A stretch of 45,906 nt of DNA from Candidatus Poseidoniaceae archaeon (GCA_028353405.1 JAOMOG010000011.1:1-45906); one strand, 5' to 3'. Positions 28,630 to 45,605 are shown, counted from the stretch's first letter. Numbers and translations are program-made. The notes: generated by a model not told the origin, from the letters alone.

Positions 28630-28738
28630 GTGTCTGCTAATGGCTCATGATACTCTAGGCTTCGGGTATTAATGCAACATAATCCTCTCAGATAGAACAC
28701 ATCTTTGCTTGAATGAGCCACTGGGTTGAAAAAGTGGA

Positions 28739-28755
28739 GCCTACGCATTGTAGGC
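28739..28755 (+). promoter_or_regulatory. Hairpin abutting the start codon at 28756
   Basis: GCCTAC-GCATT-GTAGGC forms a 6-bp stem ending exactly one base before the ATG at 28756. It would occlude a ribosome site, or it may indicate that the upstream TTG at 28726 is used instead. Confidence 0.4.
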
Positions 28756-30120
28756 ATGGGTTCGCCACCTGAGTTTACCGAACTTGCGCTTAAGAGCAGG
28801 GATGACGAGGCCTCTGAGGAATACCTTCTTCAAATACGGAGGGAAAAAGCTTCCAGGGAAATTGATAGAATTAGAAATTCATTTTCATTTAGAATCGGGA
28901 CAATTATTGCAAATTGTCTAAAAATACCGATTCTAATCCCAATTATGCCTTTTTGGATTTTTGGATTCATCTTCAAATACGGATTTGAACGCTTAGGATT
29001 AATTTCTTCTCATCAAATCTCGAGTGAAAGAGAAATTGTAAATCCGAAGCGTTGTGTTGTATTATTTCCAACAAATGGTGTTGGTTTAGGTCATTTCACT
29101 AGATTATTTGCTGTTGCAAAACGAATAAGAAAACAAGATCCTGATGTAGAGATCGTATTTGTTACTACAATGTCGGCTCTTCACTTGGTTGAAAATGAGG
29201 GCTATCCAGCATATCATTTACCTGGGTCATATATGTTCAATGACATGACATCGGGGGAATGGAATGCCATCACTGAAGAAATACTTGCTACTGTTTTTGA
29301 AATTCACAGACCAAGTGTTTTTGTTTTCGATGGAGCATTTCCTTACAGGGGAATGCTGAATGCGATTAAAAACCGAAAGGGTTTGACCAATATTTGGTTA
29401 CGCAGAGGCACCTTTAAGAAAGGTGCAACAAAAATTCCTGTTGACAGTATCGAGCATTTTGATCTAGTAATTAGGCCAGGAGATAGTTCCTCGACACAAG
29501 AAGAAGAAATCACATTCTCAACACCATTAAAATTAGTAGAACCGATATTATTTGCAGATAAAGAAGAATTGTATTCTAAGGAATATGTTCGAACAAGATT
29601 AGGAATCCCACAAGATAGTTTAGTTGCATATGTGCAACTTGGTGCTGGCAAAATAAATGATATTGAAAGCGACCTTAAAAGAGTTATTCGGCTGCTAAAT
29701 GAACACGAAAATTTGCAGATTGTAGTGGGAGAGTCTTTGATCGGAGATAGAATGGAATTAGTAGGAGAAAGAGTTAGAATCATTCGAGATTACCCTAACT
29801 CACTTTCTTTCAATGGTTTTGATTTCGCGATTATGGCAGGTGGTTACAACTCTTATCACGAGGCCATTGAATTCGCATTACCGACTGTATTTATTCCAAA
29901 TACTAAAACTGGCATGGATGATCAAGTGGCCCGTGTACGGAAAGGAGAATCTAAGGGGTTATGTCTAATTTTAGAAGAAACTGGTGATGCCTCTATGAGG
30001 AAATCGATTGCTAAAGTAGTTCAATCTGATGTGCGCCATTCAATTGTTGAATCTTGTGAAGCCTTACATCAGAAAAATGGGGCTGTCCAAGTAGGTAAAT
30101 TGATAGTTAGTATGTTATAA
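28756..30120 (+). CDS. MurG-like GT-B glycosyltransferase
   Basis: A 454-residue protein with a charged N-terminal helix (LLQIRREKASREIDRIRNSF), a hydrophobic hairpin-like segment (LKIPILIPIMPFWIFGFIFK, about 55-75) that should dip into the membrane, then a GT28/MurG-like domain. FPTNGVGLGHFTRLFAVAKR is the glycine-rich N-domain loop. GAGKIND starts the C-domain, and IMAGGYNSYHEAIEFALPTV followed by FIPN is the UDP-sugar site characteristic of this group. It probably acts on a lipid-linked acceptor at the cytoplasmic face. A TTG at 28726 would add ten residues. It converges with the fusion gene at 30179. Confidence 0.82.
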   Translation: MGSPPEFTELALKSRDDEASEEYLLQIRREKASREIDRIRNSFSFRIGTIIANCLKIPILIPIMPFWIFGFIFKYGFERLGLISSHQISSEREIVNPKRCVVLFPTNGVGLGHFTRLFAVAKRIRKQDPDVEIVFVTTMSALHLVENEGYPAYHLPGSYMFNDMTSGEWNAITEEILATVFEIHRPSVFVFDGAFPYRGMLNAIKNRKGLTNIWLRRGTFKKGATKIPVDSIEHFDLVIRPGDSSSTQEEEITFSTPLKLVEPILFADKEELYSKEYVRTRLGIPQDSLVAYVQLGAGKINDIESDLKRVIRLLNEHENLQIVVGESLIGDRMELVGERVRIIRDYPNSLSFNGFDFAIMAGGYNSYHEAIEFALPTVFIPNTKTGMDDQVARVRKGESKGLCLILEETGDASMRKSIAKVVQSDVRHSIVESCEALHQKNGAVQVGKLIVSML

Positions 30121-30178: not shown

Positions 30179-33100
30179 TCAAAACATTTCCTCAGGCGCA
30201 GGGAATTTACGGGGATTATTTCCATCACATGAAATATAATAATTCCCGCTGAAATTTTCTGATTCGTGCCACTTAGTATATGCTTGCCGATATTCTAATC
30301 TCACACCAGATAGGCCCGACCACCCTATTGCAAATTTGCCTCCTTGAGAAAGAGAATCTGAACGTACACTCGCAATCATATACGGCTCTTGAAGGTACAC
30401 GACTCGTTCCTCACCAAATACAGCAAGGAGGCGATATTCATACTCTGAATCAGCTGAAACCCTCACATTATCAAAATAACCAAGAGTAGAGATTACTTGT
30501 TCACGACGCATGACAAGAGAAATACAAGCCTGTCTCACTGCACCGATGCCTCGGAAAAGGATGTTGCCGTTTTCATCGACTCTGAAATAGTTAGAGAATA
30601 CTGCAAGGATTTTCTCATCATTCTGAAGAGTATTTATGCTATCTTCTATTTTGCAAGGGTGGAGCCAATCATCAGAGTCATGAAATGCCACAAACTCCCC
30701 TTTGGCGATAGTCATCCCTCTGTTCTTTGCAAGATAGGTTCCACCGTTTTCTTCCATAGAAACTACGCGAATTCGGTCATCAAGTGATTCTTTTTCACGA
30801 AGATATTGCATTACATTGTCTGGGCTACAATCATCTACGATAATTAATTCAATGTTCCAATAGGTCTGCTTAAGAACTGAATTAATCGCCGCATCCAATA
30901 ACTCGTTTTCCATATAAACAGTCATTATTATGCTGACTAATGGTCCATCAATTGAATGGATTGCAGTACTTCTCAAGGATCCTACATCTATTCTTTTTCG
31001 CGAATCTATTGATTCAAAACATTCGCGTCCTTTGTTTTGCTCCTTGAATGCTTTACTTACGCTATCAAAGTGACCGATACCATCATGAGCATATGAGCAA
31101 ATTTGACTCTGTACTAAGTGATATTCGGAAACATTTCCAAACAACTCTTTATGCCTTTGTAGCAAGGTTTTAGCATCCTTAATTTCACCCTGCCGCCCTA
31201 GAGCAAGAGCAAGTTGAGATACAGGTATATGCCCATTATTTTCAAAGTGGAATTGGTCTAAATTTTTTTCAAGTAATAATTTACAAATAGTAATTATTTT
31301 TTCATCGTTCTGGAAATGATTGTATGCAATATTTATGCAATAAATTCCCGCTTCTCGAACGAAGCGTGTGACATCTTTTGTGATAATTGAAAATAATATT
31401 GGATAGGCTTCATCATATCGTTGTGAACGATAGTATGAACGTGCGACACCCATGTTTGCTCTTTCATATTGTGGATTTACCAATAGTATTTTTTGCCAAT
31501 GGTCTATTGCAGATGAGTAATCTCCCTGGGCTTCAAAAAGTGTTGCTTCTTCAGCTAATGCCCCTATATTCTCGGCATCAAGTTTCAAAGCCTTTCTGAT
31601 AAATTCTTTCGACTTAACATAATGCCCCTTTCTACGATAATGATTGGCGAGTGAAATAATCGTTGATGGTTCATTTGGCCGAAGAGAAATAGCATAATTC
31701 ATTACTTGTTCTCCTTGCTTATCATCTCCTAATGCTAATAGAAGCGTTGCGTATTGGTGGACATAATGAAAACGATCCGGCCTTTGGCGTAGTAATTCAT
31801 GATACAGGGGGAGCATCTCTTCATAGTTCTTCAACTTGTGATGATTACGGGCCAATCTGTATGTAGCAAGTATTGACAAAGGATTTAGCGAATGTGCGAG
31901 TAGAAGACGTTCATGTGCAGTATTATATTTCCCCAAATCAAAAAGACGGATTCCCGAATATAATAATGCTTTAAAGTTAGAAGGAGATTTTATTAGGACC
32001 TCCTCTAATTTTGACAATGAAAGAGTGGACAAGTTTGCATCGTCAATAATCATGTCCTTGTCAACATTTGCTTTCAGTATGCTTGGATTTTGGCCAAGAA
32101 TTTCTAAGGTTAACGATTGTAACGGTTCGCTAACCACAATATTCCCCTGCCGCCCGAAAGCCGACAGCGCCCAAGTCCAGTTGGAAACTCCAGCGTTGAA
32201 TATTTTCCCTCCGAGTATTTTTTGTGATGTTTGGGCAACAGTATATCTTAGGAATTTGTGCCTCCCCTTGCCAGAAATAATGATTTCTCTATCATCAGTA
32301 ACTCTATCCCACGATGAACCAACAATACCTTTAATTTTTTTATGGTCAATATTTTCTTTTCCAATAAATTGCATATTGCCCCATGGCGAACGGGGTTTTG
32401 AGCCCGATGGCCTTGAACCTGTTAATGGATTTACAAGACGTTCTTGAGCATCATCGCCATGAAAGAAAATTTTACCTGAAACTGGGTTGAATTGGATGAG
32501 GTGTTGCCCAGCTTCTGCTCCTAAATGTGCGTATACATTACCTTCCTTACTACAAAAGTCATTGACTGAATCATCAAAGGTGTGAGTCCAATATCTCATA
32601 GGCCCGACGGTAACAAGATTGGTTATTAGTTCAGGGATTTTCCCTTCCGCTTCAATATCAAGATCAGTGATATATGTCACTGGGATCTCGTGTCTTTCTA
32701 AAAACCGAACAAGAGGATATGCCCAACGTAAGAAGTCCCCGCCCCTGGCATTATACATCGGACGGTTGATAGAAATGGCTGGAGTGCCAATCGCATGGTA
32801 CAATTCTTTCTTGCGCTTAGGTTTACCATTAATCACTTGAGTGGCGCTAGCTCCACCCCACCAGTTCCTTGATTGAATATTTAGAGGGGAGAAGCAGATG
32901 GAAAGGCCTTCTGCTTCGCTGGGGCTTGTAAGCCAAAATGGAACTAAAATAGAACCCCCGTGGATAGACTCAACCCTTGCCACATACATTCCATCGCACC
33001 AATCATTTGGTACTATTTTTGAAAATATGACTGGCCATTTTGGGCCTTGTTCAATTAAGGAGTCATTAGGTAAATCAGCATCATTCCAAGTTTCACCATA

Positions 33101-33355
33101 ATTGATTGTCAATTCTTTTGAATCAAACACTGAGCGTGCACCGGTACCATGATACCACCCTAATCTGAATATCCTAACAGTACATTGACTACCTTCTAAA
33201 TTAGATGAAATGCCTCTAAAAATAATCTCTTGTCCTTTGTGAACCCCCCCTCCTTCAACAAAAACTTGTATTTCATTATTAATTTCTAACCCTTTTGGAA
33301 TGGTCCAATCAATAGACCCACGTAGTTTGTTTTCAAGGATGCTGTCAAACTTCAC
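30179..33355 (-). CDS. DMFase-like domain + TPR + GT2 fusion protein
   Basis: A 1058-residue cytoplasmic protein with three modules. Residues 1 to about 430 resemble the N,N-dimethylformamidase large-subunit-like domain: FRLGWYHGTGARSVF (63-77), NWWGG (164-168), FLRWAYPLVRFLERHEIPVT (208-227) with YITDLD, GPMRYW (251-256, where relatives as I recall have GHxEYW) and NAGVSNWTWAL (387-397). Residues about 450-770 form TPR helices (ALLYSGIRLFDLGKYNTAHE and similar). Residues 804-1035 are a GT2 domain with VSIIMTVYMENELLDAAINS, DDCSPD (841-846) and FHDSDDW (891-897). It is last in the Wzm-Wzt operon, 4 nt after wzt. Its role is probably glycan extension or capping tied to export. The meaning of the DMFase-like module is unknown. 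Confidence 0.85.
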   Translation of the reverse strand: MKFDSILENKLRGSIDWTIPKGLEINNEIQVFVEGGGVHKGQEIIFRGISSNLEGSQCTVRIFRLGWYHGTGARSVFDSKELTINYGETWNDADLPNDSLIEQGPKWPVIFSKIVPNDWCDGMYVARVESIHGGSILVPFWLTSPSEAEGLSICFSPLNIQSRNWWGGASATQVINGKPKRKKELYHAIGTPAISINRPMYNARGGDFLRWAYPLVRFLERHEIPVTYITDLDIEAEGKIPELITNLVTVGPMRYWTHTFDDSVNDFCSKEGNVYAHLGAEAGQHLIQFNPVSGKIFFHGDDAQERLVNPLTGSRPSGSKPRSPWGNMQFIGKENIDHKKIKGIVGSSWDRVTDDREIIISGKGRHKFLRYTVAQTSQKILGGKIFNAGVSNWTWALSAFGRQGNIVVSEPLQSLTLEILGQNPSILKANVDKDMIIDDANLSTLSLSKLEEVLIKSPSNFKALLYSGIRLFDLGKYNTAHERLLLAHSLNPLSILATYRLARNHHKLKNYEEMLPLYHELLRQRPDRFHYVHQYATLLLALGDDKQGEQVMNYAISLRPNEPSTIISLANHYRRKGHYVKSKEFIRKALKLDAENIGALAEEATLFEAQGDYSSAIDHWQKILLVNPQYERANMGVARSYYRSQRYDEAYPILFSIITKDVTRFVREAGIYCINIAYNHFQNDEKIITICKLLLEKNLDQFHFENNGHIPVSQLALALGRQGEIKDAKTLLQRHKELFGNVSEYHLVQSQICSYAHDGIGHFDSVSKAFKEQNKGRECFESIDSRKRIDVGSLRSTAIHSIDGPLVSIIMTVYMENELLDAAINSVLKQTYWNIELIIVDDCSPDNVMQYLREKESLDDRIRVVSMEENGGTYLAKNRGMTIAKGEFVAFHDSDDWLHPCKIEDSINTLQNDEKILAVFSNYFRVDENGNILFRGIGAVRQACISLVMRREQVISTLGYFDNVRVSADSEYEYRLLAVFGEERVVYLQEPYMIASVRSDSLSQGGKFAIGWSGLSGVRLEYRQAYTKWHESENFSGNYYISCDGNNPRKFPAPEEMF

Positions 33356-33359
33356 GTTT

Positions 33360-34100
33360 TCACCTCAAAATCAATTCATTGTACATTTTAATCGTTTCTT
33401 CGGGATCGCCAGACTGGACAATCTTGCCATTTTCCATTAGTACCAATCGATGGCAGACTTTCTTTAGATAATTCAGATTGTGTGAAACAATTACTACTGT
33501 AGAAGCATCATCGACCATTTCCTTTATTCGGTGGCGGCTTCTTTCTTTGAAAGAGGCATCCCCCACAGCCAACACTTCATCGATTAGAAGAATCTCTGGC
33601 TTTACAGCACTTGCCACAGAAAGGCCTAATCTAGCTTGCATACCGCTTGAATAAGTCTTAAGCGGTTGGTCGATAAAGTCTTCAAGTTCAGCGAATGAAA
33701 CGATTGAATCCATCATAGCAGTCATTTTTTCTCTTGAATGTCCAAGAATGCTCCCGTATAAATGTACATTTTCCCGACCGGATAAATTCCCGTTAAATCC
33801 AATTTTAACATTAGAAAGTAAATTGACAGTTGCCGAAGACATTGCTATTCCTCTATCTGGTTGATAAATTCCAGACATTATACGAAGAAGGGTACTCTTT
33901 CCTGACCCATTTCTACCTATTATGCCCACAACCTCTCCCTTAGAAATCGAAAGATTAACATTTTTTAGCGCCTCAAAAGGAAGAATTCTAGCATCCTGCC
34001 CCATTCTCCTTTTCAACCATCTGAAAAGTGAACCAATTCCAATCCGATGCCTTGGGAAAGACAAATCAACATTTTTGATTAGTAATGATAAATCACTCAT
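33360..34100 (-). CDS. wzt: Polysaccharide ABC exporter ATPase (Wzt/TagH type)
   Basis: A 246-residue ATPase that powers export of a lipid-linked polymer. Walker A GRNGSGKST (62-70), signature SSGMQ (151-155), Walker B with catalytic Glu LLIDE (171-175), D-loop AVGDASF, and the H-loop His in VIVSHN. The N-terminal extension (FPRHRIGIGSLFRWLKRRMG) is typical of O-antigen and teichoic-acid exporters. It lacks the C-terminal carbohydrate-binding domain of long Wzt proteins, so chain recognition must lie elsewhere, perhaps in the fusion protein encoded next. It overlaps the permease gene by 4 nt. Confidence 0.93.
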   Translation of the reverse strand: MSDLSLLIKNVDLSFPRHRIGIGSLFRWLKRRMGQDARILPFEALKNVNLSISKGEVVGIIGRNGSGKSTLLRIMSGIYQPDRGIAMSSATVNLLSNVKIGFNGNLSGRENVHLYGSILGHSREKMTAMMDSIVSFAELEDFIDQPLKTYSSGMQARLGLSVASAVKPEILLIDEVLAVGDASFKERSRHRIKEMVDDASTVVIVSHNLNYLKKVCHRLVLMENGKIVQSGDPEETIKMYNELILR

Positions 34101-34969
34101 AAGCGCTTCACCACCTTCGATTCAGTTTTCTTAAAAACTGTTAAACCTATGTAAACCGATAGTATAGAAAATAATACAGACCAAATTATTGCCCAGTTAG
34201 GGACTACGAGAGAAGTGCCATCAAAAGCACATCGCATCAATTCAAGTGGCACTACCATTGGGTTAAGAATGTAAAGATAATCTAAATAATAGGATTTAGG
34301 ACCTGCCTTTTCAATCGCCAAACTAACTTGCCACATTACGGGGGAAACGAAGAATCCAGCCCTGGTGACAAATCTTGTAAGATGAGCTATATCGCCATGA
34401 TGTACATTTGAAACTGCGAATAACCAACCAACTCCGAGAACCTGTAATGTCACTAGCATTAATGCGATTGGAGCAAACAATAACTGCCAAGTCGGCTGGA
34501 TTCCAAGTTTTATCATAAATGGAATTGCGACAACAAGGCTCATCGCCGTGACTACTAATTGTGCCATGACTTTAGAAACTGCGAATAATTCACGCGGAAA
34601 ATAAATTTGCTTAATCATATTTTTATTTCCAGTCAAACTGTTGACCGATGCATTCAACCCCTTGGAAAAGTATTGCCAAGTTATTACTCCAAGAATAATC
34701 CACAGTGGCAATCTCGAGTCGGTGGTATCCCTAAGTATCGTGAACAGGAAATAATATACTGCAGAAAGCAATAATGGTTCTAACACAGTCCAAAAGTATC
34801 CAACGATGGAATTCCTATATCGTTGAGAAATATCCCTACTGGTGAAATTGCGAATTAATCCTTTATGTATCCAAAAATTTGACAGGGCTTCCGGAAATGC
34901 AGTAATCGTTTTAGAAACAGGGTTTACAATTGTAAGGCCGCGTAAATCCTCATCGGCGGTACCCTTCAT
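34097..34969 (-). CDS. wzm: Polysaccharide ABC exporter permease (Wzm/TagG type)
   Basis: A 290-residue ABC-2 permease with six predicted helices. The cytoplasmic N-terminus LIRNFTSRDISQRYRNSIVG followed by YFWTVLEPLLLSAVYY is highly characteristic of the polysaccharide/teichoic-acid exporter family. GNKNMIKQIYFPRELFAVSK and LNPMVVPLELMR are the other conserved loops. With the ATPase it moves a finished lipid-linked glycan across the membrane. First gene of the three-gene unit; a TATA box lies 50-60 nt upstream. Confidence 0.93.
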   Translation of the reverse strand: MKGTADEDLRGLTIVNPVSKTITAFPEALSNFWIHKGLIRNFTSRDISQRYRNSIVGYFWTVLEPLLLSAVYYFLFTILRDTTDSRLPLWIILGVITWQYFSKGLNASVNSLTGNKNMIKQIYFPRELFAVSKVMAQLVVTAMSLVVAIPFMIKLGIQPTWQLLFAPIALMLVTLQVLGVGWLFAVSNVHHGDIAHLTRFVTRAGFFVSPVMWQVSLAIEKAGPKSYYLDYLYILNPMVVPLELMRCAFDGTSLVVPNWAIIWSVLFSILSVYIGLTVFKKTESKVVKRL

Positions 34970-35270: not shown

Positions 35271-36773
35271 ATGAAATTACTCAGAAAATTATTTCCTAGA
35301 AAGGATGTTATCACTGCTTCCATGGCGGCTGTACCATGGAGAGAGGACATATTAGAGCAAGTTGTAGAATCCTTATTACCCCAAGTAGATCGATTAAACA
35401 TTTATCTTAATGAATGGAATCAAATCCCTGAATTTTTAAATCATTCAAAAATAAATGCTGTAATGTCCCAAAAAGAAATCGGTGATTTAGGGGCTAGAGG
35501 TAAATTCTACTGGTGTCAAAATATCCGCGGATACCATTTGACAGTTGATGATGACATTTTGTATCCCCCTGACTATGTAGAACAGATTCTATTTAACCTC
35601 GGCAGATATCCCAATGCAGTGGTTTCGTACCATGGGTCAATCTTAAATTATCCAGTATTCAAGAAGAGAAATAACAAACTTACTCATTTCGTAAGAGACT
35701 CTCCAAAAGATATGAAAGTAACTTTGATTGGAACGGGAGTATTGGCGTATGATGCGAATAAATTGGCTATATCTTTTTCTAAATTTAAATCTAATAATTG
35801 GGCTGATGGGTGGTTTTCTCTTCAAGTAAGAAATGCGAATTTTCGATGTATCACCATTCGTCATAAGAAGGATTGGTTGAAACCCCTACCTACCGAAGGC
35901 CCAGATATTTGGTCAATGAATCGGGAGGAATCAAGAGATCAACAAATAAATCAATGGATAAATGAATACAAATTATGGGATGAAATGACTTTATTTTCTG
36001 AGCGTATACGAGATAGGAGTCTTAGATGGTGGGTTCACCGAGACGAAGTTCAAAACAAAAACGTCGGTGGAAAGATTAGTGGGCAAGATTTTGCAAAGTC
36101 ACTAGGAATACGAGTTCCTGCAATTTACAACGTAGTTTCATCACCCGAAGAAATTCCTACTTTTGAGAAACTAGGAGAATCTTTTGTGATTAAACCTGCA
36201 AGGGGGTATTCAGCAACCAACGTATTCTTGATGAATAATGGCGTGAATTTATTCGATGGAAAAACCTGGAACAGACAAGAAGTTATTGATGAATTTAGCA
36301 TTTCAAAACAATCACAATCGGATTCCAATAAAAAAATAATTATTGAAGAACTACTGATTCCATGGGACGGGGAGAAAAGAATACCATATGATTACAAATT
36401 CTATATGTTCGGCGAAAAAATCGCATATTGCCAAATTATCGATAGGAGAAGTAGCGCCAACACAAAACTCAACAAGACTTGGTACGTTGATTCGGAATTT
36501 AATATAATCAATAAACAAATAATGGTAGAATATTGGCTGGATGATAAGCAGCCTGCAATCATGAAGCCGGATTGTTGGAATGATTTAGTTTCTACTGCCA
36601 AGGTACTGGGGGCGGCTGTAAATCGTTTCACTAGAGTTGACCTATATGCTACCAATAATGGCCCAGTTTTTGGTGAATTTACCCCCACTCCACACGGTGG
36701 TCGCGGATTCACAAAATGGGCTGATAAGTGGCTTGGGGAAATGTGGGAAGGTGTGGAAGGTGCTGGAGATTAA
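35271..36773 (+). CDS. GT2-like domain fused to TupA-like ATP-grasp ligase
   Basis: A 500-residue cytoplasmic protein. Residues about 14-240 are a GT-A-like domain: MAAVPWREDILEQVVESLLP, LNIYLNEW, GDLGARGKFYW and VDDDILYPPDYV (92-103, DDD metal site). Residues about 255-495 match the TupA-like ATP-grasp family: VQNKNVGGKISGQDFAKSLG, ESFVIKPARGYSA with the ATP-binding Lys308, DYKFYMFGEKI, RVDLY (Asp457) and FGEFTPTPHGG (Glu469), which bind Mg-ATP. TupA of Bacillus halodurans is linked to teichuronopeptide synthesis; ATP-grasp ligases form amide bonds through acyl-phosphates. This single chain may add a sugar and an amino acid. AAGGTGAGG supports the start. It stands alone between the exporter and the O-acetylation genes. 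Confidence 0.85.
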   Translation: MKLLRKLFPRKDVITASMAAVPWREDILEQVVESLLPQVDRLNIYLNEWNQIPEFLNHSKINAVMSQKEIGDLGARGKFYWCQNIRGYHLTVDDDILYPPDYVEQILFNLGRYPNAVVSYHGSILNYPVFKKRNNKLTHFVRDSPKDMKVTLIGTGVLAYDANKLAISFSKFKSNNWADGWFSLQVRNANFRCITIRHKKDWLKPLPTEGPDIWSMNREESRDQQINQWINEYKLWDEMTLFSERIRDRSLRWWVHRDEVQNKNVGGKISGQDFAKSLGIRVPAIYNVVSSPEEIPTFEKLGESFVIKPARGYSATNVFLMNNGVNLFDGKTWNRQEVIDEFSISKQSQSDSNKKIIIEELLIPWDGEKRIPYDYKFYMFGEKIAYCQIIDRRSSANTKLNKTWYVDSEFNIINKQIMVEYWLDDKQPAIMKPDCWNDLVSTAKVLGAAVNRFTRVDLYATNNGPVFGEFTPTPHGGRGFTKWADKWLGEMWEGVEGAGD

Positions 36774-36869
36774 TTTCTAACAGTTATCGTAACCCAAATT
36801 ATGTGAATAATTTATCAAACTATTTATTTTATCAACCCAGGCTATTGCCTGTGCCGTTATGATTCAATG

Positions 36870-36884
36870 TGAACCTAAGGTTCA
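36870..36884 (+). promoter_or_regulatory. 15-bp palindrome upstream of the O-acetylation genes
   Basis: TGAACCT-A-AGGTTCA is a perfect 7-bp inverted repeat. It lies about 40 nt downstream of a TATA-like TTTATTTTA (36823-36831) and 34-52 nt before the possible starts. It could be an operator just inside the transcript; no regulator is identified. Confidence 0.4.
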
Positions 36885-36917
36885 AGATCATTCTCGCGGG
36901 GAATGGTTCATCCGTAA

Positions 36918-39209
36918 ATGCCGATTCGGACAGACATGGCAGTTGCTAAGCACACTGATTTCAGTTTTTCTGGACTCATTGTATCTGTATTATCATTATT
37001 CCTTTCTGCAATGTTTGTCCTATCATCTGTCGGTCCTGCAATCGTTACAGATTCTCTAGCTAGTACTAATCTGGTATCTAATACGAGGTATGGAGTTACA
37101 TTCCCAGCATTAAATAGCCTTGAAAATCATGATGAAGATTCTGTCATAGCAATTGGCTCTTCAATAATTCAGGCATCAGTTGATGGGAAATGCATTTCAG
37201 AATCAATGAAAAATAATGATATTGATGTATACAACCTAGCCATATCAGGTGCTAATCCATATACAGAAATTTTACAAATACCTGCCTTAATCCGAGCAGA
37301 TCCCGAACTTGTATTGCTCGATCTTGGCCCCAATGGATTATGGGATTTCAAGAGCGATTCTGACCTAGATGAATATATTCAATTTCGTTTTACGATAAAC
37401 AGTATCGCCATGCAACACGAAGACATTGGAAATTGGACAGATTTAATTAGAGAAGCAGACAGACCCTGGATTGCTTTTAATAATGCAGAGAGAATTGAAT
37501 TGACACAATCCTACTCTCAAAAGAGCTTTGAACTTTGGTTGCAGTCGGAATTTTCAGAACATTTCGATTCAATAAAATTTGAGCAGAAAGCACCTTTACC
37601 CGACGATGAAAATTGGATTGAATACTTGATGCAGCCGAATTGGCCAGCACCAAATTTTGAACTTAAGACTCAAGAAGAGGTTATGAAATATTTTGAAGAA
37701 AAAATGCCGAGAAAAGCCACTCAGGGTGTATATAATCCCAAATTAAATGATACGCTAAATCATAAATCATACGAATATATTATTTCAGAATTAACTAATG
37801 CCGGCATAGAGGTCCTACTTGTTGCTACACCACATCATCCAATGGTTTATCCATATCTAGAAGATGGCCAATTAGATAATTTCAATGATACCTTTGAGAG
37901 ATATTCTAGTTATGATGGAGTTAAAGGAGTCAACATGTTTTGGGAGGAATGGCACGATTCTATGTTCAGAGATAGGAATCATTTGGGAGTCAATGGGCGC
38001 GAATATTTCTGTCAAAGATTAGCACCCATCATTGATGGAGTTCTAGAGGGGAAAAACATATCTGACATAGACTCCACTATTGGGACTATTAATTTGTCGA
38101 ATTATCTTGAAGAAAGTTGCAAGGGAAGCGGTTTTACTAGCATTATTGATGGACAATACAAATTCATACAAGCTGAAAGTTATTCAAATTGTGCCAGGGG
38201 AGAAGGAGTCGCATTCCAAGATAGATGGGAATTTGAATCATCAAGCGATAATGAGGGTAGTGGTTTTTTACACGCACTTCCCGAAGATTCTTCCCAATAT
38301 AAAGGGGGAATTGCTGGTTCAAGATTAGATTATCAACTAGAATTTACTACCGATGGATCATATTATGTTTGGATAAATATGAAAGGAAATTCATATGGAA
38401 ATGATTCAATAGGAATTAGCTGGAAATTACAGGGCCAGGAATATTTACCAATAGAAAAATATGAATCGTTTGGTTGGTCTTCGGAGGGGCAATGGGAATG
38501 GGAGCCTGAATTTAATAGAGAGCCAATGATTATCAATGCCTCTGCTAATGACGATGTGACTCTCAGCATTTGGATGACAGAAGATGGAGTTATGATTGAT
38601 GAGATTCTAATAACTACTGACCCGAATTTGAAACCTAAAAATATTGACCCACACCAATTAATCAATCAGCAATTAAATTGTGAAGGTAGTGACAGTATTT
38701 GGCAAGCACAGTTTGATGGCGAAGTCACTATTGAGGCTGAAGAGTATTCAAGATGTAGTTATGGAGAGGGAGAATCTATTGCTCATCAGTGGATCATTGT
38801 GGAGGATATTAATTCGTCACAAGGAGCATATCTGGCTGCAATGCCTGATGAGAGAGTGCATATGAAAGAAGAAAGGGGGCCAGGGTTACATTATGACATA
38901 CATTTCCCAGCATCAGGAACATATTATGTTTGGATTTCCATGAGAGGAAATTCGTATGGAAATGATACGGTCGGGTTAAATTGGAATTTTAACGAAACTG
39001 ATGGAAACATGTCAGTTATTGCATCGTTTGCTTGGAACTCTTATGGTCAGTGGGAATGGGAGCCGCAGACATCTCAAGTACCCCTCAATATCTCGGTTTC
39101 CGGGGGGGATTTAGCTACACTAAGTGTATGGATGAGAGAAGATGGTGTTGAATTTGATCGTTTGATCATAACGAATGATGCAAGTTTTGACCCATACCAG
39201 GGGGATTAG
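36918..39209 (+). CDS. Membrane-anchored SGNH (AlgJ/DltD-like) protein with two carbohydrate-binding repeats
   Basis: A 763-residue protein with one N-terminal helix (about 18-42, LIVSVLSLFLSAMFVLSSV) and an outside-facing SGNH-type domain. IAIGSSIIQ (77-85) holds the nucleophile Ser, LGPNG (136-140) the block III Asn, and RDRNHLG (351-357) the catalytic Asp352/His355 pair. The C-terminus has two tandem beta modules (about 415-570 and 605-755), each with an EAE[SE]Y start, YYVWI[NS]M[KR]GNSYGND, GQWEWEP and a final W-M-[TR]-E-D-G-V motif, resembling the carbohydrate-binding C-terminal domain of GH115 enzymes. It likely transfers acetyl to an exported glycan delivered by the MBOAT partner 2 nt downstream. 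A start at 36936 is equally possible. Confidence 0.85.
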   Translation: MPIRTDMAVAKHTDFSFSGLIVSVLSLFLSAMFVLSSVGPAIVTDSLASTNLVSNTRYGVTFPALNSLENHDEDSVIAIGSSIIQASVDGKCISESMKNNDIDVYNLAISGANPYTEILQIPALIRADPELVLLDLGPNGLWDFKSDSDLDEYIQFRFTINSIAMQHEDIGNWTDLIREADRPWIAFNNAERIELTQSYSQKSFELWLQSEFSEHFDSIKFEQKAPLPDDENWIEYLMQPNWPAPNFELKTQEEVMKYFEEKMPRKATQGVYNPKLNDTLNHKSYEYIISELTNAGIEVLLVATPHHPMVYPYLEDGQLDNFNDTFERYSSYDGVKGVNMFWEEWHDSMFRDRNHLGVNGREYFCQRLAPIIDGVLEGKNISDIDSTIGTINLSNYLEESCKGSGFTSIIDGQYKFIQAESYSNCARGEGVAFQDRWEFESSSDNEGSGFLHALPEDSSQYKGGIAGSRLDYQLEFTTDGSYYVWINMKGNSYGNDSIGISWKLQGQEYLPIEKYESFGWSSEGQWEWEPEFNREPMIINASANDDVTLSIWMTEDGVMIDEILITTDPNLKPKNIDPHQLINQQLNCEGSDSIWQAQFDGEVTIEAEEYSRCSYGEGESIAHQWIIVEDINSSQGAYLAAMPDERVHMKEERGPGLHYDIHFPASGTYYVWISMRGNSYGNDTVGLNWNFNETDGNMSVIASFAWNSYGQWEWEPQTSQVPLNISVSGGDLATLSVWMREDGVEFDRLIITNDASFDPYQGD
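38360..38966 (+). repeat. Internal duplication in the SGNH gene
   Basis: The segments at about 38360-38406 and 38918-38966 still match at the nucleotide level (shared ATATTATGTTTGGAT and TATGGAAATGAT blocks). They mark the duplicated carbohydrate-binding modules, about 560 bp apart. Confidence 0.75.
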
Positions 39210-39211
39210 TA

Positions 39212-40666
39212 ATGGATTTCGTAGATTTGGATTATTATCTATACTTCTTACCGGCGGTATTCGTTCTTGCAATGTGGGTTTCCCTTGGAAAAAGAAAACC
39301 GCAAATCATAATATTACTCTTAATGAGTTATCTGTTTTTCTGGTTTGCTTCAGGCTGGTATATATTATTATTATTAATCTCAACATGCTTAGATTGGACT
39401 GCCGGTTCGAAAATGTATGCATCAGAAGATAATGTAATCAGAAAACGTTGGCTGAAAGCAAGTTTAATCACAAATCTAGGATTACTAGGTGTGTTTAAAT
39501 ATCTAGATTTCTTTATCGAGTCTTTGAACCTCGTATCTTTGAAATTCACAAATTCTGTAGAAATTGATACATTCGGACTTTTGCTTCCAGTAGGCATTTC
39601 ATTTTATACATTCCAGACCATGTCCTATTCAATTGACATATACCGGAAAAAACAGAAACCGTACGACTCATTTGTAGACTTTGCGTGCTATGCTGCGTTT
39701 TTCCCTCAACTTGTGGCAGGTCCGATAGTTAGAGCCGATCATTTTAGAAAAGAAATTGAAAATTCATTACGAATAGATTCTGTCCAATTTAGATTAGGAT
39801 TGACTCTAATCATTTATGGGGTCGCAAAGAAATTAATTATTGCCGATAATGTCGCCATTCACGCGAACTCAATTTTCGTCGAAGGTGAGCACTTGGCTAA
39901 TATTGGCTTAGTGTGGTGGGCGACATTGTGTTTTGGAATCCAAATTTACTGTGACTTCTCAGCCTACACCGATATCGCCATTGGTTCAGCATACCTACTG
40001 GGAGTTAGGTTACCAGAAAATTTCCAGACTCCATATGCTGCAACTTCTCCACAAGATTTCTGGAGAAGGTGGCATATCTCTCTTTCTACATGGCTAAGAG
40101 ACTATCTTTACATCCCCTTAGGTGGTTCAAGAAATGGTACAAAAAGAATGATTTTCGCTTTGATGATGACGATGTTACTTGGAGGATTATGGCATGGGGC
40201 ATCTTGGAATTTCGTTCTTTGGGGATTAGTACATGGATTACTATTGATAATTCATAGATTCGGGAAAAACATTGGATTCGTGAATAAGTTTTTCAACGTT
40301 ACCGGGAAATTTGGAGTTTTAATCTCTTGGTTTATAACACAAATTTGTGTCTTCTTTACATGGTTAATATTTAGAGTTGAAGAAACATCCATTTTAATTC
40401 CTTCAATGAAAACTTTCTTTGGTATCGGAGCTCATTTCGACTCAAGAGAGATGTATGATTTTCTTCCTGAGATCAAATTACTAACTGTAGTCATAGTTGT
40501 TGCTTTCATCCTATTACACGGAATAAGTGGGAAAGTGGGGGGTGGGAAAATGTGGCTTTCACGTAGACACCCAATTATTTGGGGAATTATTTGTGGAGTG
40601 ATGCTCTCACTTACATTCTATTTACGACCTGCTGAAACTGTTGATTTCATCTATTTTAGATTCTGA
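39212..40666 (+). CDS. MBOAT O-acyltransferase (AlgI/DltB-like)
   Basis: A 484-residue polytopic membrane protein with about ten or more helices. LPVGISFYTFQTMSYSIDIY (125-144), FFPQLVAGPIVRA (163-175), QIYCDFSAYTDIAIG (244-258) and FWRRWHISLSTWLRDYLYIP (283-302) are hallmarks of AlgI-type MBOATs. The catalytic His lies in GGLWHGASWNFVLWG (His328). It carries an acetyl group across the membrane for polysaccharide O-acetylation and hands it to the SGNH protein encoded 2 nt upstream, as AlgI does with AlgJ/AlgX. The pair is clearly one operon. Confidence 0.95.
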   Translation: MDFVDLDYYLYFLPAVFVLAMWVSLGKRKPQIIILLLMSYLFFWFASGWYILLLLISTCLDWTAGSKMYASEDNVIRKRWLKASLITNLGLLGVFKYLDFFIESLNLVSLKFTNSVEIDTFGLLLPVGISFYTFQTMSYSIDIYRKKQKPYDSFVDFACYAAFFPQLVAGPIVRADHFRKEIENSLRIDSVQFRLGLTLIIYGVAKKLIIADNVAIHANSIFVEGEHLANIGLVWWATLCFGIQIYCDFSAYTDIAIGSAYLLGVRLPENFQTPYAATSPQDFWRRWHISLSTWLRDYLYIPLGGSRNGTKRMIFALMMTMLLGGLWHGASWNFVLWGLVHGLLLIIHRFGKNIGFVNKFFNVTGKFGVLISWFITQICVFFTWLIFRVEETSILIPSMKTFFGIGAHFDSREMYDFLPEIKLLTVVIVVAFILLHGISGKVGGGKMWLSRRHPIIWGIICGVMLSLTFYLRPAETVDFIYFRF

Positions 40667-40764
40667 GGATGGTATATTGGGCAAAATAGATTACCTCTCA
40701 TATCTGCTCTCCGATTCAGAAATTACCGTTACATTCAATGGTGGAGTGCCTCGCACTTCCGTTT

Positions 40765-42120
40765 ATGAACTCGGTTTCTGATATTACGGCTAAGATTGCC
40801 TCCGGGCATCTGCGAGTTGGAATCATTGGTCTCGGTTATGTGGGTTTACCCACAGCTATCGGTTTCCATGATGCTGGATTTGAAGTCTGGGGTGTTGATG
40901 TTTCTCAAAGAACAGTCGACATGGTCAAAGCAGGAAAAAATCCAACCGGTGACCCAGATGTCGATGATATTATGCCAGCACCAGGTACGCCGAATTGGCA
41001 CATCACTAACTCCGCAGCAGAAGCAGTACCTCACTGCGATGTTATTTTAGTAACCGTTCCAACCCCAATTACTCATGACCTCAAACCAGATCTTTCCTAT
41101 GTTGCAGGTGCAGGACGCGATGTATTTCAAGCGATTTCAAAAGGTTCTCGAACGATTGTAGTTCTAGAATCAACTGTTTATCCAGGTGTCACAGCCCAGA
41201 CTTGGCACCCAATCATCGAAGAATTAGGTCTCGTCATTGGTGAAGATTTAGAAATCGCTTACTGTCCTGAACGATTCAATCCGGGGGACTCCGCTCACGG
41301 AGTTCGTCAAGTAGCGCGAGTCATCGGGTGCGAAAATCCAGAAATAGGTGAAGAACTTGTTCAACTATACTCCAAATTAACAACAGAAGATGTTCGCTAT
41401 GTCGGAAAACTCGAAGTGGCTGAGGCAGCCAAAGTCATTGAAAACGTTCAGCGCGACATCAACATCGCCTTAGTCAATGAATTAGCTCGAATATTCCCTG
41501 CCTTAGATGTCGATGTTGAAGATGTTTTATCAGCAGCAGCGACCAAATGGAATTTCCACCGCTACACACCTGGTGTTGGAGTTGGAGGACACTGTATTCC
41601 AGTTGACCCATATTACATGATACAAAGAGCGGCTGACGTTGGAATACCTGCTGAATTAATTACCGCAGCCCGCGCAGTAAATCGCAATATGCCAGTTCAT
41701 GTTGCTGAAGTGATTCGTAAATTGATGAGCAAGCATGGGGTTGAGGCAAACGATGCCAGAGTTCTACTTCTAGGTTGGTCGTATAAGGCAGAAGTTGGAG
41801 ATCCTAGAGAAACCCCAGCAGCACCACTGAGTGAGACATTATTGGCAAATGGAGTCAAAGTTAGCGCTTGGGATCCACATTTAGAACCAGGACAATTCCC
41901 TCAAGGAATTGATGTAGTTGAAGATATTTCTTCAGCTCAAGGATATGATATTGCAATATTGGTTACAGCACATAAAGCATGCTTGGAAATTGACTTTACA
42001 AAACTTGTTTCTAATATGAGAACTCCTTTGTTATATGATGGAAGAAGAGTCCTAAATTTGGATGAACTTACTGGAGCTGGGTGGATCTGTCATGCCGTCG
42101 GTCGCCCTAATGGACTGTGA
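40765..42120 (+). CDS. Nucleotide-sugar 6-dehydrogenase (WecC/TviB type)
   Basis: Oxidises the 6-OH of a UDP-sugar (UDP-ManNAc, UDP-GlcNAc or UDP-Glc) to the uronic acid with two NAD. It has 451 residues; IGLGYVGLPTA near the N-terminus binds NAD, VPTPI and ESTVYPG are conserved, CPERFNPGD marks the WecC/TviB subgroup, and GVGVGGHCIPVDPYY carries the catalytic Cys (residue 277 with this start). SYKAEVGDPRETPA lies in the C-terminal UDP-binding domain. An ATG at 40738 adds nine residues; 40765 gives a more usual N-terminus. It leads straight into the cysteate-synthase-like gene, suggesting both products enter one pathway. Confidence 0.92.
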   Translation: MNSVSDITAKIASGHLRVGIIGLGYVGLPTAIGFHDAGFEVWGVDVSQRTVDMVKAGKNPTGDPDVDDIMPAPGTPNWHITNSAAEAVPHCDVILVTVPTPITHDLKPDLSYVAGAGRDVFQAISKGSRTIVVLESTVYPGVTAQTWHPIIEELGLVIGEDLEIAYCPERFNPGDSAHGVRQVARVIGCENPEIGEELVQLYSKLTTEDVRYVGKLEVAEAAKVIENVQRDINIALVNELARIFPALDVDVEDVLSAAATKWNFHRYTPGVGVGGHCIPVDPYYMIQRAADVGIPAELITAARAVNRNMPVHVAEVIRKLMSKHGVEANDARVLLLGWSYKAEVGDPRETPAAPLSETLLANGVKVSAWDPHLEPGQFPQGIDVVEDISSAQGYDIAILVTAHKACLEIDFTKLVSNMRTPLLYDGRRVLNLDELTGAGWICHAVGRPNGL

Positions 42121-42124
42121 AAAA

Positions 42125-43366
42125 ATGCTACACCACAGATTAAAATGCCTAAAGTCGGGCGATATTATTGATGATCAATACACCTTGCACTATACAGATG
42201 GCGCATTACTCACTGCACAATATTCTAGACCATTAGTCCCAAAGAACCTATCTGGTGTTTGGAAATATGCTGATTGGTTGCCAACTAGTACCACTTCCAA
42301 ATATGTTGCTGGAACTATAACCTACAAATCTGAAAAATTAAATCAGGCCCTTGGAATGTCAAATCTTTGGATTACATTCCATGGATATTGGCCTGAGAAA
42401 GGAGGTCTTTGCCCTACTGGAAGTTTCAAAGATATGGAGGCAGTTCCAACCATACAACGACTTAGAGACCATGATTGCAAAGGAATGATTTGCGCCAGTG
42501 CAGGTAATACAGCACGTGCTTTCATCCACTTCTGTGGCTTGGATGATATGCCCCTGATTGTGGTTGTCGGAAAAGATCACGGCCACAGACTTTGGACCAA
42601 AAAAGGACATCCAACGGAGTCTGTGAAATTAGTTATTGTTGAAGACGGCGATTATTACGATGCAAAAACAATTGCAAAAGCCATCGCTAAAGAGTTGACA
42701 GGCTGGCAAATGGAGGGCAGTGTCCACAACGTGGCCCGTCGAGATGGAATTGGCTCCTTGATTCTCGATGCAGCGTTTGCTATGAATCGATTACCAGAAC
42801 ATTATTTCCAAGGAATTGGTGGCGGGCCAGGTCCTATTGGAGTGCATGAAATGGCACACCGGGCCATTGCTTCAGGGCAATTCGAGGGCCCCGTTCCACG
42901 CCAACATCTTTCTCAGAATATTGAGCACAGCCCAATCCATAATGCGTGGCAAGAGAAAAGAGATCACTTGTTGCCGGAAGATTTCCCCTCTGAAGAAGTG
43001 ACCGTCTATTCTGATTATCTGCTCAATAAGGGACCAGCCTATGGGCCGGTTGGCGGTGTACACGATATCCTCAAAGACTCAAACGGTCAAACCTACGTTG
43101 TCAAAGAGGCTGATGCGATACAGGCAAAGCAATTGTTTGAATCGATTGAAGGCATTGATATCATGACTCCTGGTGCAGTGGCCTTAGCAAGTTTACAACA
43201 GGCACTGGCTTCGGGTGAAGTAGAATCTTCTTCACCGACAGTTCTCAACATCAGTGGCGGTGGCGTCAATCGTTACAAGCAAGACCAAGAGACTGAAATT
43301 CTAGAGCCTTGGCTGAGGGTAAAGAAGGCGAACGGTGCTATGGAAATACTCGAAGCACTTCAGTGA
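42125..43366 (+). CDS. Cysteate synthase-like PLP enzyme (threonine synthase family)
   Basis: A 413-residue fold-type II PLP enzyme. TGSFKDMEA holds the Schiff-base Lys102, CASAGNTARAFIHF the phosphate loop, and NISGGGVNR the C-terminal cofactor loop. YKSEKLNQALGMSNLWITFH, GYWPEKGG, HNVARRDGIG, YFQGIGGGPGPIG and PIHNAWQ agree better, from memory, with methanogen cysteate synthase (O-phosphoserine + sulfite to L-cysteate + phosphate) than with threonine synthase. The N-terminal Cys cluster I recall for the methanogen enzyme is reduced to one Cys (RLKCLKSG). Starts at 42110 (overlapping the dehydrogenase) and 42125 are possible; 42125 fits the family N-terminus. A plain threonine synthase remains the alternative. 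Confidence 0.78.
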   Translation: MLHHRLKCLKSGDIIDDQYTLHYTDGALLTAQYSRPLVPKNLSGVWKYADWLPTSTTSKYVAGTITYKSEKLNQALGMSNLWITFHGYWPEKGGLCPTGSFKDMEAVPTIQRLRDHDCKGMICASAGNTARAFIHFCGLDDMPLIVVVGKDHGHRLWTKKGHPTESVKLVIVEDGDYYDAKTIAKAIAKELTGWQMEGSVHNVARRDGIGSLILDAAFAMNRLPEHYFQGIGGGPGPIGVHEMAHRAIASGQFEGPVPRQHLSQNIEHSPIHNAWQEKRDHLLPEDFPSEEVTVYSDYLLNKGPAYGPVGGVHDILKDSNGQTYVVKEADAIQAKQLFESIEGIDIMTPGAVALASLQQALASGEVESSSPTVLNISGGGVNRYKQDQETEILEPWLRVKKANGAMEILEALQ

Positions 43367-43385
43367 ATATGACGAAATTGCTTCT

Positions 43386-43706
43386 TCAAGCCTTGCGACC
43401 TGCATCAAACATTTCCTTTAGAGAACCATCTTCAAGCATTTCCAAAACGATGTCGGATCCTCCGACCAATTCGCCTTGAACAAACACTTGTGGCATTGTA
43501 GGGAAATCAGACCAAGCACAAACCGATGGAATTGCTCTAGGGTCGCTGAGAATATTTACTGCGGCGAATGGTTCACCAAAAGACTGCAAAACCTGTGCAG
43601 CTCTACTTGAGAATCCACATTGCGGTTCATTAGGGTCGCCTTTCATGAACAATACCAAAGCGTGTTCATCTACTATTGCTTGTAATTCTTCATCGGTCCA
43701 TTGCAT
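43386..43706 (-). CDS. grxD: Monothiol CGFS glutaredoxin
   Basis: A 106-residue glutaredoxin of the Grx4/GrxD class. LFMKGDPNEPQCGFSSRAAQ contains the active-site CGFS, which with a thiol ligand bridges a [2Fe-2S] cluster; the WSDFPTMPQVFVQGELVGGS segment supplies the cis-Pro and GG glutathione-binding loops. It carries or delivers Fe-S clusters. The ATG at 43706 has AAGGAG 8 nt upstream, inside the end of the bolA-like gene; a GTG at 43715 is the alternative. It is co-transcribed with that gene. Confidence 0.93.
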   Translation of the reverse strand: MQWTDEELQAIVDEHALVLFMKGDPNEPQCGFSSRAAQVLQSFGEPFAAVNILSDPRAIPSVCAWSDFPTMPQVFVQGELVGGSDIVLEMLEDGSLKEMFDAGRKA

Positions 43707-43711
43707 ATTTT

Positions 43712-44032
43712 TCACTCCTTGTTTAATTTCTCTATTCGGCGAATGTGGATTCCTTGTCCACCACCATGAGGGTCAAATGCAGTATCTCCAGCAGTTTCTG
43801 CTTGTGCAGGGGTCATACACTTCAGATCAAGTGCGTGTACTGGGTGAGGAATATGTTGCTTCATATGCGCCAAAACTTGCTTCTGGCGTTGTAGTGGGCG
43901 CATACCCTCAAATTCTGCAGAGATAATACGGACATGAAAATGGTCTCCTGAACCATGCAAATCGATGACTTCAACATCTGCATCTGGAACTGCTACAAGA
44001 ACTTCCTGTGCCAACCAATCAACTGTAACCAT
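43712..44032 (-). CDS. bolA: BolA family protein
   Basis: A 106-residue protein with the BolA core: DADVEVIDLHGSGDHFHVRI, AEFEGMRPLQRQKQVLAHMK and HPVHALDLKCMTPAQ, where the conserved His and following strand bind the shared Fe-S cluster with CGFS glutaredoxins. It has an extra C-terminal tail of about 25 residues (FDPHGGGQGIHIRR). Its last codons include the glutaredoxin ribosome site, and the two genes form one operon. The pair likely senses or traffics iron-sulfur clusters. Confidence 0.92.
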   Translation of the reverse strand: MVTVDWLAQEVLVAVPDADVEVIDLHGSGDHFHVRIISAEFEGMRPLQRQKQVLAHMKQHIPHPVHALDLKCMTPAQAETAGDTAFDPHGGGQGIHIRRIEKLNKE

Positions 44033-44090
44033 TGTCTCGCCCTATCATCGCCTCGCGCTAAATGGCTTTGAACCTGTGCTATGCAATACG

Positions 44091-45605
44091 ATGCTTGAAA
44101 ACTCACCAGCCGTTGCGATAACCATGTCACAACCGGGTGGATTCCGTCTACCCGATATGAAACGAGATTCAACTTGGCTTGCTGGTGCTGACCTATTTGC
44201 AGTGTTTTTGGCACTTGCCGGTCAAGTCATACTCACTCGTTCATTGCTATCAAGTGATTATGGTTTATTCATCATCCTGCTTGATTTATTTGCTACTACT
44301 TTCTTAATAATCGATTTAGGGCTTCCAACATTATTGGCTAGAGATGGGGTAAAAGCACCCCATCTAGTATGGCCCGCTGTTTGGCGAGTATACGGAATGC
44401 AACTAAAAATTGCCATTCCATTTTTTTTACTAACTCTGTTGTTAACACCTCAACTAATTCCATCTTGGCAAAACCAAATTTCACTATTGATTCTGACTTC
44501 CATTATAGCCATTGTCCACATCGCATCATATGCACCTAGAAGTGCACTAAGAGCAATAGGAGAGGCGCGTATTGAAGGTTTTACCAAAGTAATAGAACGC
44601 GCAATAACTACAATACTATACTGTATTCTATTTGTCAAAGGATATGATAATGTAGAGTATTTCGCTGCTGCATTTTTATCTGGAGCCTTTATTGCATGGG
44701 TATTCTCATTAATACAGTTGTCAAAAATATCCAGGCCACTTTGGCTATCTAAAGAGATATGGAATTGGAATGATTTAGGAGAATCATGGACAAGCCCTAA
44801 ACAACTGTTTTTTTCAGCAATGCCATTCGCAATAACATTAGGAATATTACCATATGTGATCAGAATTGAGAAGTTCATTTTAGCCGGATACATGGGTATT
44901 GATGCCGCCGCATTATTCCATGTAGCACAATTAGCATGGCTGGCCGGATTAGTTGTGCCTCAAGCGATGCGTTCTGCATTATTGCCTGTACTCGGCAATG
45001 TCCGTGATGACGAATCTGCATTCAAATCCGAAATGGAAAAGTCAATGTATTTTTGTTTCAATCTTATGCCGATTGGATTTTATTGCGGTGCTATCATCGT
45101 ATGGTTGCTTTTACCGATTGCCTTCCCGTCACAATACATCGATGGAAGCCTAGGTGCATCGGCTGTTGACATCTTTTTCATACTCTTATTTGGATGGTCG
45201 ATGACGATATTAGCTACTCCTTTTTACACTGCACTAAAGGCTGGAAAAAAACCTTGGAACTTCACTTTATTCATTTTACTAGTAGTGGTTTTCGGTAGCT
45301 TAGTTGGATGGTTTTTAATTTCATATTTCTCAGAAGTAGGTATAACTCAAGCGATTGCTTCAGCAGCCTTCGCTTCATCGCTAACTTCGTTATTCTTGCT
45401 AATAATTTCCATCCACTTGAGTCGCTCTTGGCCACTTGTCAAGGAAAATATGAGCGCTTGGATTCTATTGATTTCATCGGTAGCAATCGCAAGTTATTCA
45501 CTATGGAATACTGACTTTATTATCGGCGTTTCATTACCTGCAATTTACTTCATTGGTTCACTAATTTATTCAAAAGTGAATTCCAAGAGTCTTGACAATG
45601 CGTGA
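44091..45605 (+). CDS. Wzx-like polysaccharide flippase
   Basis: A 504-residue integral membrane protein of the MOP flippase type with about twelve helices. The first segment, STWLAGADLFAVFLALAGQV then ILTRSLLSSDYGLFI, matches Wzx-family helices 1-2 with the usual xxYGxF turn. YAPRSALRAIGEARIEGFTK and PFAITLGILPYVIRIEKFIL fit helices 4-7. It would flip lipid-linked oligosaccharides. In-frame ATGs at 44091 and 44124 are possible; further upstream starts run into the divergent bolA. Its last 56 nt overlap the convergent glycosyltransferase gene. Confidence 0.88.
   Translation: MLENSPAVAITMSQPGGFRLPDMKRDSTWLAGADLFAVFLALAGQVILTRSLLSSDYGLFIILLDLFATTFLIIDLGLPTLLARDGVKAPHLVWPAVWRVYGMQLKIAIPFFLLTLLLTPQLIPSWQNQISLLILTSIIAIVHIASYAPRSALRAIGEARIEGFTKVIERAITTILYCILFVKGYDNVEYFAAAFLSGAFIAWVFSLIQLSKISRPLWLSKEIWNWNDLGESWTSPKQLFFSAMPFAITLGILPYVIRIEKFILAGYMGIDAAALFHVAQLAWLAGLVVPQAMRSALLPVLGNVRDDESAFKSEMEKSMYFCFNLMPIGFYCGAIIVWLLLPIAFPSQYIDGSLGASAVDIFFILLFGWSMTILATPFYTALKAGKKPWNFTLFILLVVVFGSLVGWFLISYFSEVGITQAIASAAFASSLTSLFLLIISIHLSRSWPLVKENMSAWILLISSVAIASYSLWNTDFIIGVSLPAIYFIGSLIYSKVNSKSLDNA

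Follow-up and report, generated by a model that had tools for sequence, protein, structure and literature searches.

Gene content of the island

The window, meaning the whole stretch of 45,906 nucleotides that was analysed, is contig C3 of an incomplete genome (66%) from a Poseidoniaceae (MGIIa) archaeon, whose relatives are named Candidatus Poseidoniaceae or Poseidoniales. Judged by its predicted genes, the window shows a variable surface-polysaccharide island of this archaeon, with the following features.

28726..30120, plus strand: glycosyltransferase-like protein (MJ1255/PseG/MGT-like; weak NCBIfam matches), recurring in these islands
30179..33355, minus strand: large fusion of a DMFA2_C-like domain, TPR repeats and a C-terminal GT2 (TuaG-like) domain (Pfam PF20254, PF00535)
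33360..34100, minus strand: Wzt-like ABC exporter ATPase (galactan_ABC_ATP 2.9e-59, below the equivalog cut-off)
34097..34969, minus strand: Wzm-like ABC-2 exporter permease (PF01061 4e-13; galactan_ABC_perm 7e-24, below cut-off)
35271..36773, plus strand: fusion of a KfiA/heparosan-synthase-like GlcNAc transferase with a TupA-type ATP-grasp domain (PDB 5z8b, 8vh7; PF14305)
36918..39209, plus strand: SGNH/DltD-like O-acyl-transfer protein with C-terminal GH115_C-like module(s) (PF04914 2e-5, PF17829 2.3e-14)
39212..40666, plus strand: MBOAT O-acyltransferase of the AlgI/DltB type (PF03062 4.8e-29; PDB DltB 1e-23)
40738..42120, plus strand: nucleotide-sugar 6-dehydrogenase, UDP-HexNAc-dehydrogenase-like (TIGR03026; PDB 4r16, Cap5O)
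42125..43366, plus strand: cysteate synthase with a PLP fold (TIGR03844; PDB 9k3c by sequence and fold)
43386..43715, minus strand: glutaredoxin, a fixed island border gene kept whether or not the locus has cysteate synthase (PF00462)
43712..44032, minus strand: small conserved protein adjoining glutaredoxin, island border (synteny only)
43965..45605, plus strand: predicted polytopic membrane protein, a fixed island marker present in 138 of 171 relatives

The five plus-strand genes from 35271 to 43366 named in the original prediction are present and coding as claimed. Its placement of a cysteate-synthase-like gene 4 nt after the dehydrogenase is exact: the stop codon TGA (42118-42120) is followed by AAAA and then by ATG at 42125. 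Beyond these genes, the marker membrane protein matched nothing in Pfam, NCBIfam or PDB, and its hydrophobicity and context allow a guess at a Wzx/MATE-type flippase. The glycosyltransferase-like protein at 28726..30120 has a 66% identical homologue in the island of G296, a genome from another genus. The fusion at 30179..33355 joins DMFA2_C (N,N-dimethylformamidase beta-like), TPR and GT2 in an unusual way and scores 108 bits against NCBIfam TuaG, below the cut-off; a full-length homologue occurs at locus L183, and full length is kept beside TupA in G296. The SGNH protein apparently carries two similar GH115_C-like modules, perhaps polysaccharide binding, the second of them seen as a double match of the G255 homologue.

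The ATP-grasp fusion had been described as a GT2-TupA protein. Its TupA-type half stands (residues ~265-491; PF14305 1.9e-20, 73.9 bits against a gathering cut-off of 25). The GT2 label does not, since no Pfam GT2 model matched the N-terminal half (residues ~10-239). This half instead matches KfiA (PDB 5z8b, 1.5e-20 over residues 13-209) and heparosan synthase B, PmHS2 (8vh7, 5.3e-20), and is predicted to be a GlcNAc transferase of the KfiA/heparosan-synthase type. The dehydrogenase passes TIGR03026 (373 bits against a cut-off of 190) and is closer to PDB 4r16 (1e-56) and Cap5O (1.9e-55) than to UDP-glucose dehydrogenase (2e-38). It does not reach the UDP-glucose dehydrogenase equivalogs AglM (178.6 against 670) and TuaD (147 against 700). 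The top sub-family scores (246.8 and 245.7, below the cut-offs) belong to UDP-HexNAc 6-dehydrogenases (TviB/WecC/archaeal ManNAc dehydrogenase). Because the enzyme is nearest to this group, its product is likely to be a hexosaminuronic acid.

By profile score and modelled fold, the PLP enzyme belongs to the cysteate-synthase family and is not a threonine synthase, the identity on which the original prediction could have failed. It scores 416.5 bits against the curated TIGR03844 cut-off of 324.9, about 90 bits over, and its best score against threonine synthase models is 76.7 where 303 bits are required. Its sole strong solved relative by sequence, PDB 9k3c (7e-73), was deposited as a cysteate synthase. 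The first fold match of an AlphaFold2 model (pLDDT 84) is the same structure, CapA2 of Alistipes finegoldii (4.6e-39); threonine synthases follow from 1.3e-19, some 20 orders of magnitude weaker. The enzyme therefore probably makes cysteate from O-phosphoserine and sulfite.

Cysteate synthase and TupA in Poseidoniaceae islands

Among 293 Poseidoniales genomes, 39 have a cysteate synthase scoring over the cut-off, and every one of these belongs to the Poseidoniaceae. Carriers make up about 51 of 171 genomes of this family, and short remnants occur in two more (G010 and G241). The G010 remnant (locus L107) is 198 bases long, covers residues 347-412 at 73% identity and lies between the dehydrogenase and glutaredoxin, indicating that the gene was lost in place.

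We compared 40 loci with cysteate synthase and 40 marked by the membrane protein; frequent contig breaks, usual for variable islands, limit the counts that follow. The usual order is (Wzt, Wzm), dehydrogenase, then cysteate synthase, a DegT aminotransferase or nothing, followed by glutaredoxin, the small protein, the membrane protein and a glycosyltransferase. Where the gene upstream of cysteate synthase was readable (33 loci), it was the dehydrogenase in 20, MBOAT in six, SGNH in two and TupA in one; in three further loci cysteate synthase lay behind the border genes, and in one elsewhere. The dehydrogenase or MBOAT/SGNH thus stands directly upstream in the same direction in 28 of the 33 loci with that gene on the contig, a grouping that is not chance. 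Linkage of dehydrogenase and cysteate synthase is robust across genera, which bears out that part of a predicted three-gene linkage; TupA, the third member, is not obligatory.

WecB and heparinase II/III-like proteins turn up in sister islands, and DUF6395 proteins and further O-acylation genes are found there as well. Heparinase II/III-like proteins lie inside the export island at L068 (11077-13671) and L118 (7298-9280), one of them with a polysaccharide deacetylase domain, and their presence there hints at a uronic acid polymer. Taken with WecB, the KfiA-like glycosyltransferase and the UDP-HexNAc-type dehydrogenase, they lead us to infer a polymer of the hexosaminuronic-acid type. DUF6395 proteins bearing the PP-loop motif SGGVDS are found repeatedly in the islands (L060 8528-9664, L052 10975-12255 and others); twice such a protein lies directly behind cysteate synthase, and it is a candidate ligase.

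Cysteate synthase is an optional cassette of this polysaccharide island. In G086 (locus L079, compared with window positions 42450-43400), the flanks are 85-99% identical and most of cysteate synthase is only 51-71% identical, apparently the trace of an allele replacement by recombination inside the island. The fixed place of the gene in a glycan island is an association and no proof of use.

TupA follows a looser pattern. Some TupA-type gene is present in 58 of 171 Poseidoniaceae genomes and in 24 of the 51 carriers of cysteate synthase. It lies within ~12.4 kb of cysteate synthase in 14 carriers and was found nowhere in 27; with TupA missing from more than half of the carriers, no single ligase tracks cysteate synthase. 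Close homologues of the window's TupA (38-52% identity) occur in six genomes including the window, five of which have cysteate synthase. In all five, spread over genera g1, g2, g4 and g8, the two genes share a contig and lie within 14 kb of each other, in islands that hold Wzm/Wzt and mostly the dehydrogenase too. In the window, G255 and G237 this TupA forms a fusion with a glycosyltransferase; in G066 and G296 it sits directly behind one. One stretch of G296 unites cysteate synthase, Wzm/Wzt (71%), the GT2 fusion (52%), TupA (50%), the homologue of the 28726..30120 glycosyltransferase (66%) and the dehydrogenase (76%). Genus g2 has another TupA-like protein 1.6-2.5 kb from cysteate synthase. 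An obligatory pairing of the two genes was rejected, the genome-level association being weak (Fisher p=0.02 without kinship correction; p=0.5 outside g2). TupA lay near the island in 14 of 24 genomes with cysteate synthase and in 3 of 34 without (p=7.5e-5), in hand-made lists where ten of the 14 came from one genus and contig breaks bias the count. The link between TupA and cysteate synthase is weaker but real.

These distributions bear on where the cysteate goes. Cysteate synthase might serve a soluble pool, as a taurine or cysteate osmolyte, in sulfite detoxification or for release to the plankton, its place in the island being due to hitch-hiking in a recombination hot spot. Cassette exchange in the island and the want of a ligase common to every carrier would suit such a role. 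Against it, the recognisable genes from exporter to border genes are nearly all glycan genes, cysteate synthase repeatedly falls within the dehydrogenase or MBOAT transcription unit, and its neighbours in the loci include no recurrent decarboxylase or transporter. We consider a soluble pool unlikely, if the strongest of the competing explanations, and infer that cysteate ends in an exported polymer.

Substrate and sulfur supply of the enzyme

Our alignment set 37 Poseidoniaceae enzymes beside six coenzyme M- or CapA-type enzymes and seven that are associated with PAPS reductase. Thirty-nine positions are invariant across the three groups, namely the PLP lysine K102 and 38 more, and G127-N128, R205-R206-D207, Q264-N265 and the ARRDG region are kept in all of them. 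Six conserved positions split the Poseidoniaceae enzymes from the coenzyme M/CapA type, three of them near the active site by motif (C99G, S233G and T235P); G99 and P235 are also common to the PAPS-reductase-associated enzymes. In the tree, all Poseidoniaceae enzymes fall into one clade together with one protein from a Bacteroidota metagenome-assembled genome (MAG), on a long branch; the deep joins are unsure because of long branches.

Sulfate activation is scarce in the family. APS kinase is missing from 17 of 18 Poseidoniaceae genomes tested, and a full-length PAPS reductase is present in just 1 of 24. The scarcity of APS kinase agrees with the published finding that MGIIa mostly lack ATP sulfurylase and APS kinase (PMC6864105). 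The sister family has an APS-kinase-like gene in 10 of 10 genomes tested, and no cysteate synthase over the cut-off was found there in the search of 293 Poseidoniales genomes. The sole exception among the Poseidoniaceae is G025, which has cysteate synthase plus both PAPS genes. In this genome, PAPS reductase and APS kinase are neighbours (G025:C20:54088-56792), the only case of both among the Poseidoniaceae tested; G025 has likely acquired sulfate assimilation. PAPS reductase was rejected as the source of sulfite, being missing in nearly all carriers tested. Sulfite can be expected in the cell, given the sulfite reduction reported for MGII core genomes (PMC6336850). As for the other substrate, no gene passed the SerB cut-off and only matches below it were found, an uninformative proxy for phosphoserine, whose supply we therefore assume.

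The six clade-specific changes, three of them near the active site, together with the long branch mean that the nucleophile could differ. The enzyme would then use something other than sulfite on phosphoserine, or on a related substrate, and supply the glycan with some other unusual amino acid; most carriers, having no PAPS reductase, also have no canonical sulfite supply. This is improbable given a score well above the equivalog cut-off and a closest fold in CapA2. Moreover, G99 and P235 recur in enzymes fused to a sulfite-making PAPS reductase, and the reported core genomes handle sulfite.

Fusions of this kind were seen in Thermoplasmatota family f16 (L133-L138, L141, L132), where a PAPS reductase domain either forms one protein with cysteate synthase or comes after it. 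Several of these loci adjoin both a phosphatidylserine-decarboxylase-like gene (PF02666) and a protein resembling CapK/PaaK, which may point to an archaeal lipid with a taurine or cysteate head group or to a taurine pathway.

In Poseidoniaceae, a role of cysteate in a sulfonolipid of the capnine type, or in an archaeal lipid with a cysteate or taurine head group, strikes us as very unlikely. Bacteroidota do employ cysteate synthase for sulfonolipids (PMC11211663), and the closest non-archaeal relative comes from a Bacteroidota MAG. No lipid gene, and no cysteate fatty acyltransferase (alpha-oxoamine synthase), was recognised in the locus maps, in which part of the genes were searched against families, and the neighbourhood of the Bacteroidota homologue (L014) held no glycan or lipid genes among the genes searched. 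Service in coenzyme M biosynthesis, the role described for cysteate synthase in Methanosarcina and suggested by operons of HcyBio (MMP16-like), cysteate synthase and ComDE in related Thermoplasmatota, has practically no standing here, because the sulfopyruvate decarboxylase ComDE is missing from 24 of 24 Poseidoniaceae genomes (the positive control G414 has it) and the locus shows no partner genes for coenzyme M synthesis.

A possible sulfonated surface polymer

The reading that we prefer is a PAPS-independent sulfonation of a surface polymer of the hexosaminuronic-acid type in Poseidoniaceae that carry cysteate synthase, and we hold the chances for and against it to be evenly balanced. In the proposed route, the dehydrogenase would make a UDP-hexuronic acid, UDP-HexNAcA more likely than UDP-GlcA, and cysteate synthase would join O-phosphoserine and sulfite to L-cysteate. 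Glycosyltransferases, the KfiA-like domain among them, would assemble a GlcNAc/uronic-acid polymer in the cytoplasm, to which cysteate or a derivative would be attached. The attaching enzyme may be the TupA-type ATP-grasp protein, forming an amide, in some genomes and another enzyme in others; a uronic acid amide with cysteate formed by TupA is speculative. Wzm/Wzt would export the polymer, with O-acylation outside. A bolder version, in which MGIIa attach cysteate through amide bonds to a glycosaminoglycan-like surface polymer of hexosamine and hexosaminuronic acid, as a PAPS-independent stand-in for sulfated glycosaminoglycans encoded by a strain-swapped cassette of a surface-antigen island, is a tentative proposal that we doubt more than we believe.

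Parts of this route have counterparts in known systems. With the coenzyme M cysteate synthase (TIGR03844; Methanosarcina MA3297) and CapA2 (9k3c), the window's enzyme has family, fold and conserved catalytic positions in common; it differs in lying in a polysaccharide island and not beside ComDE/HcyBio, in forming a separate clade and in its six fixed differences. A model for the polymer is teichuronopeptide, in which amino acid and uronic acid together form an acidic chain (PMC8153356). The TupA-type ATP-grasp domain is the sole part that the window has in common with its synthesis by Bacillus halodurans TupA; in the window this domain is fused to a GlcNAc transferase, and a supply of a sulfonated amino acid lies nearby. 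The heparosan (K5) capsule system (KfiA/PmHS2) likewise combines a KfiA-like half, a 6-dehydrogenase and an ABC exporter, whereas the window's dehydrogenase is nearer to the UDP-HexNAc than to the UDP-glucose type and its transferase has ATP-grasp fused on.

Amides of uronic acids with amino acids occur in marine bacterial polysaccharides, for example the GalNAcA-D-Ala of Microbulbifer (PMC3210612). This is the chemistry proposed here, with an amino acid bound as an amide to a hexosaminuronic acid, except that the amino acid would be sulfonated; the literature searched held nothing to the point on cysteate or taurine amides in polysaccharides or on cysteate in MGII. A sulfonate on an archaeal surface glycan has a precedent in the Sulfolobus S-layer N-glycan, which carries sulfoquinovose (PMC2948927). 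There the sulfonate is on the sugar itself, and in our proposal it would be brought by an attached amino acid.

In a family mostly without APS kinase and PAPS reductase, and with sulfite expected in the cell, cysteate synthase would offer a way to a strong acid that bypasses PAPS. Cysteate on the coat may thus give strongly acidic groups that do not depend on the customary machinery of sulfate activation.

The uncultured MGIIa rank among the most abundant archaea in sunlit ocean waters; to our knowledge, almost nothing is known of their cell surface. If the proposed route is true, sulfonate reaches the MGIIa coat without PAPS. Organic sulfonate in the sea would then have a new source and the cell surface a new chemistry, and the cassette would make a surface trait variable, perhaps under selection by viruses or grazers.
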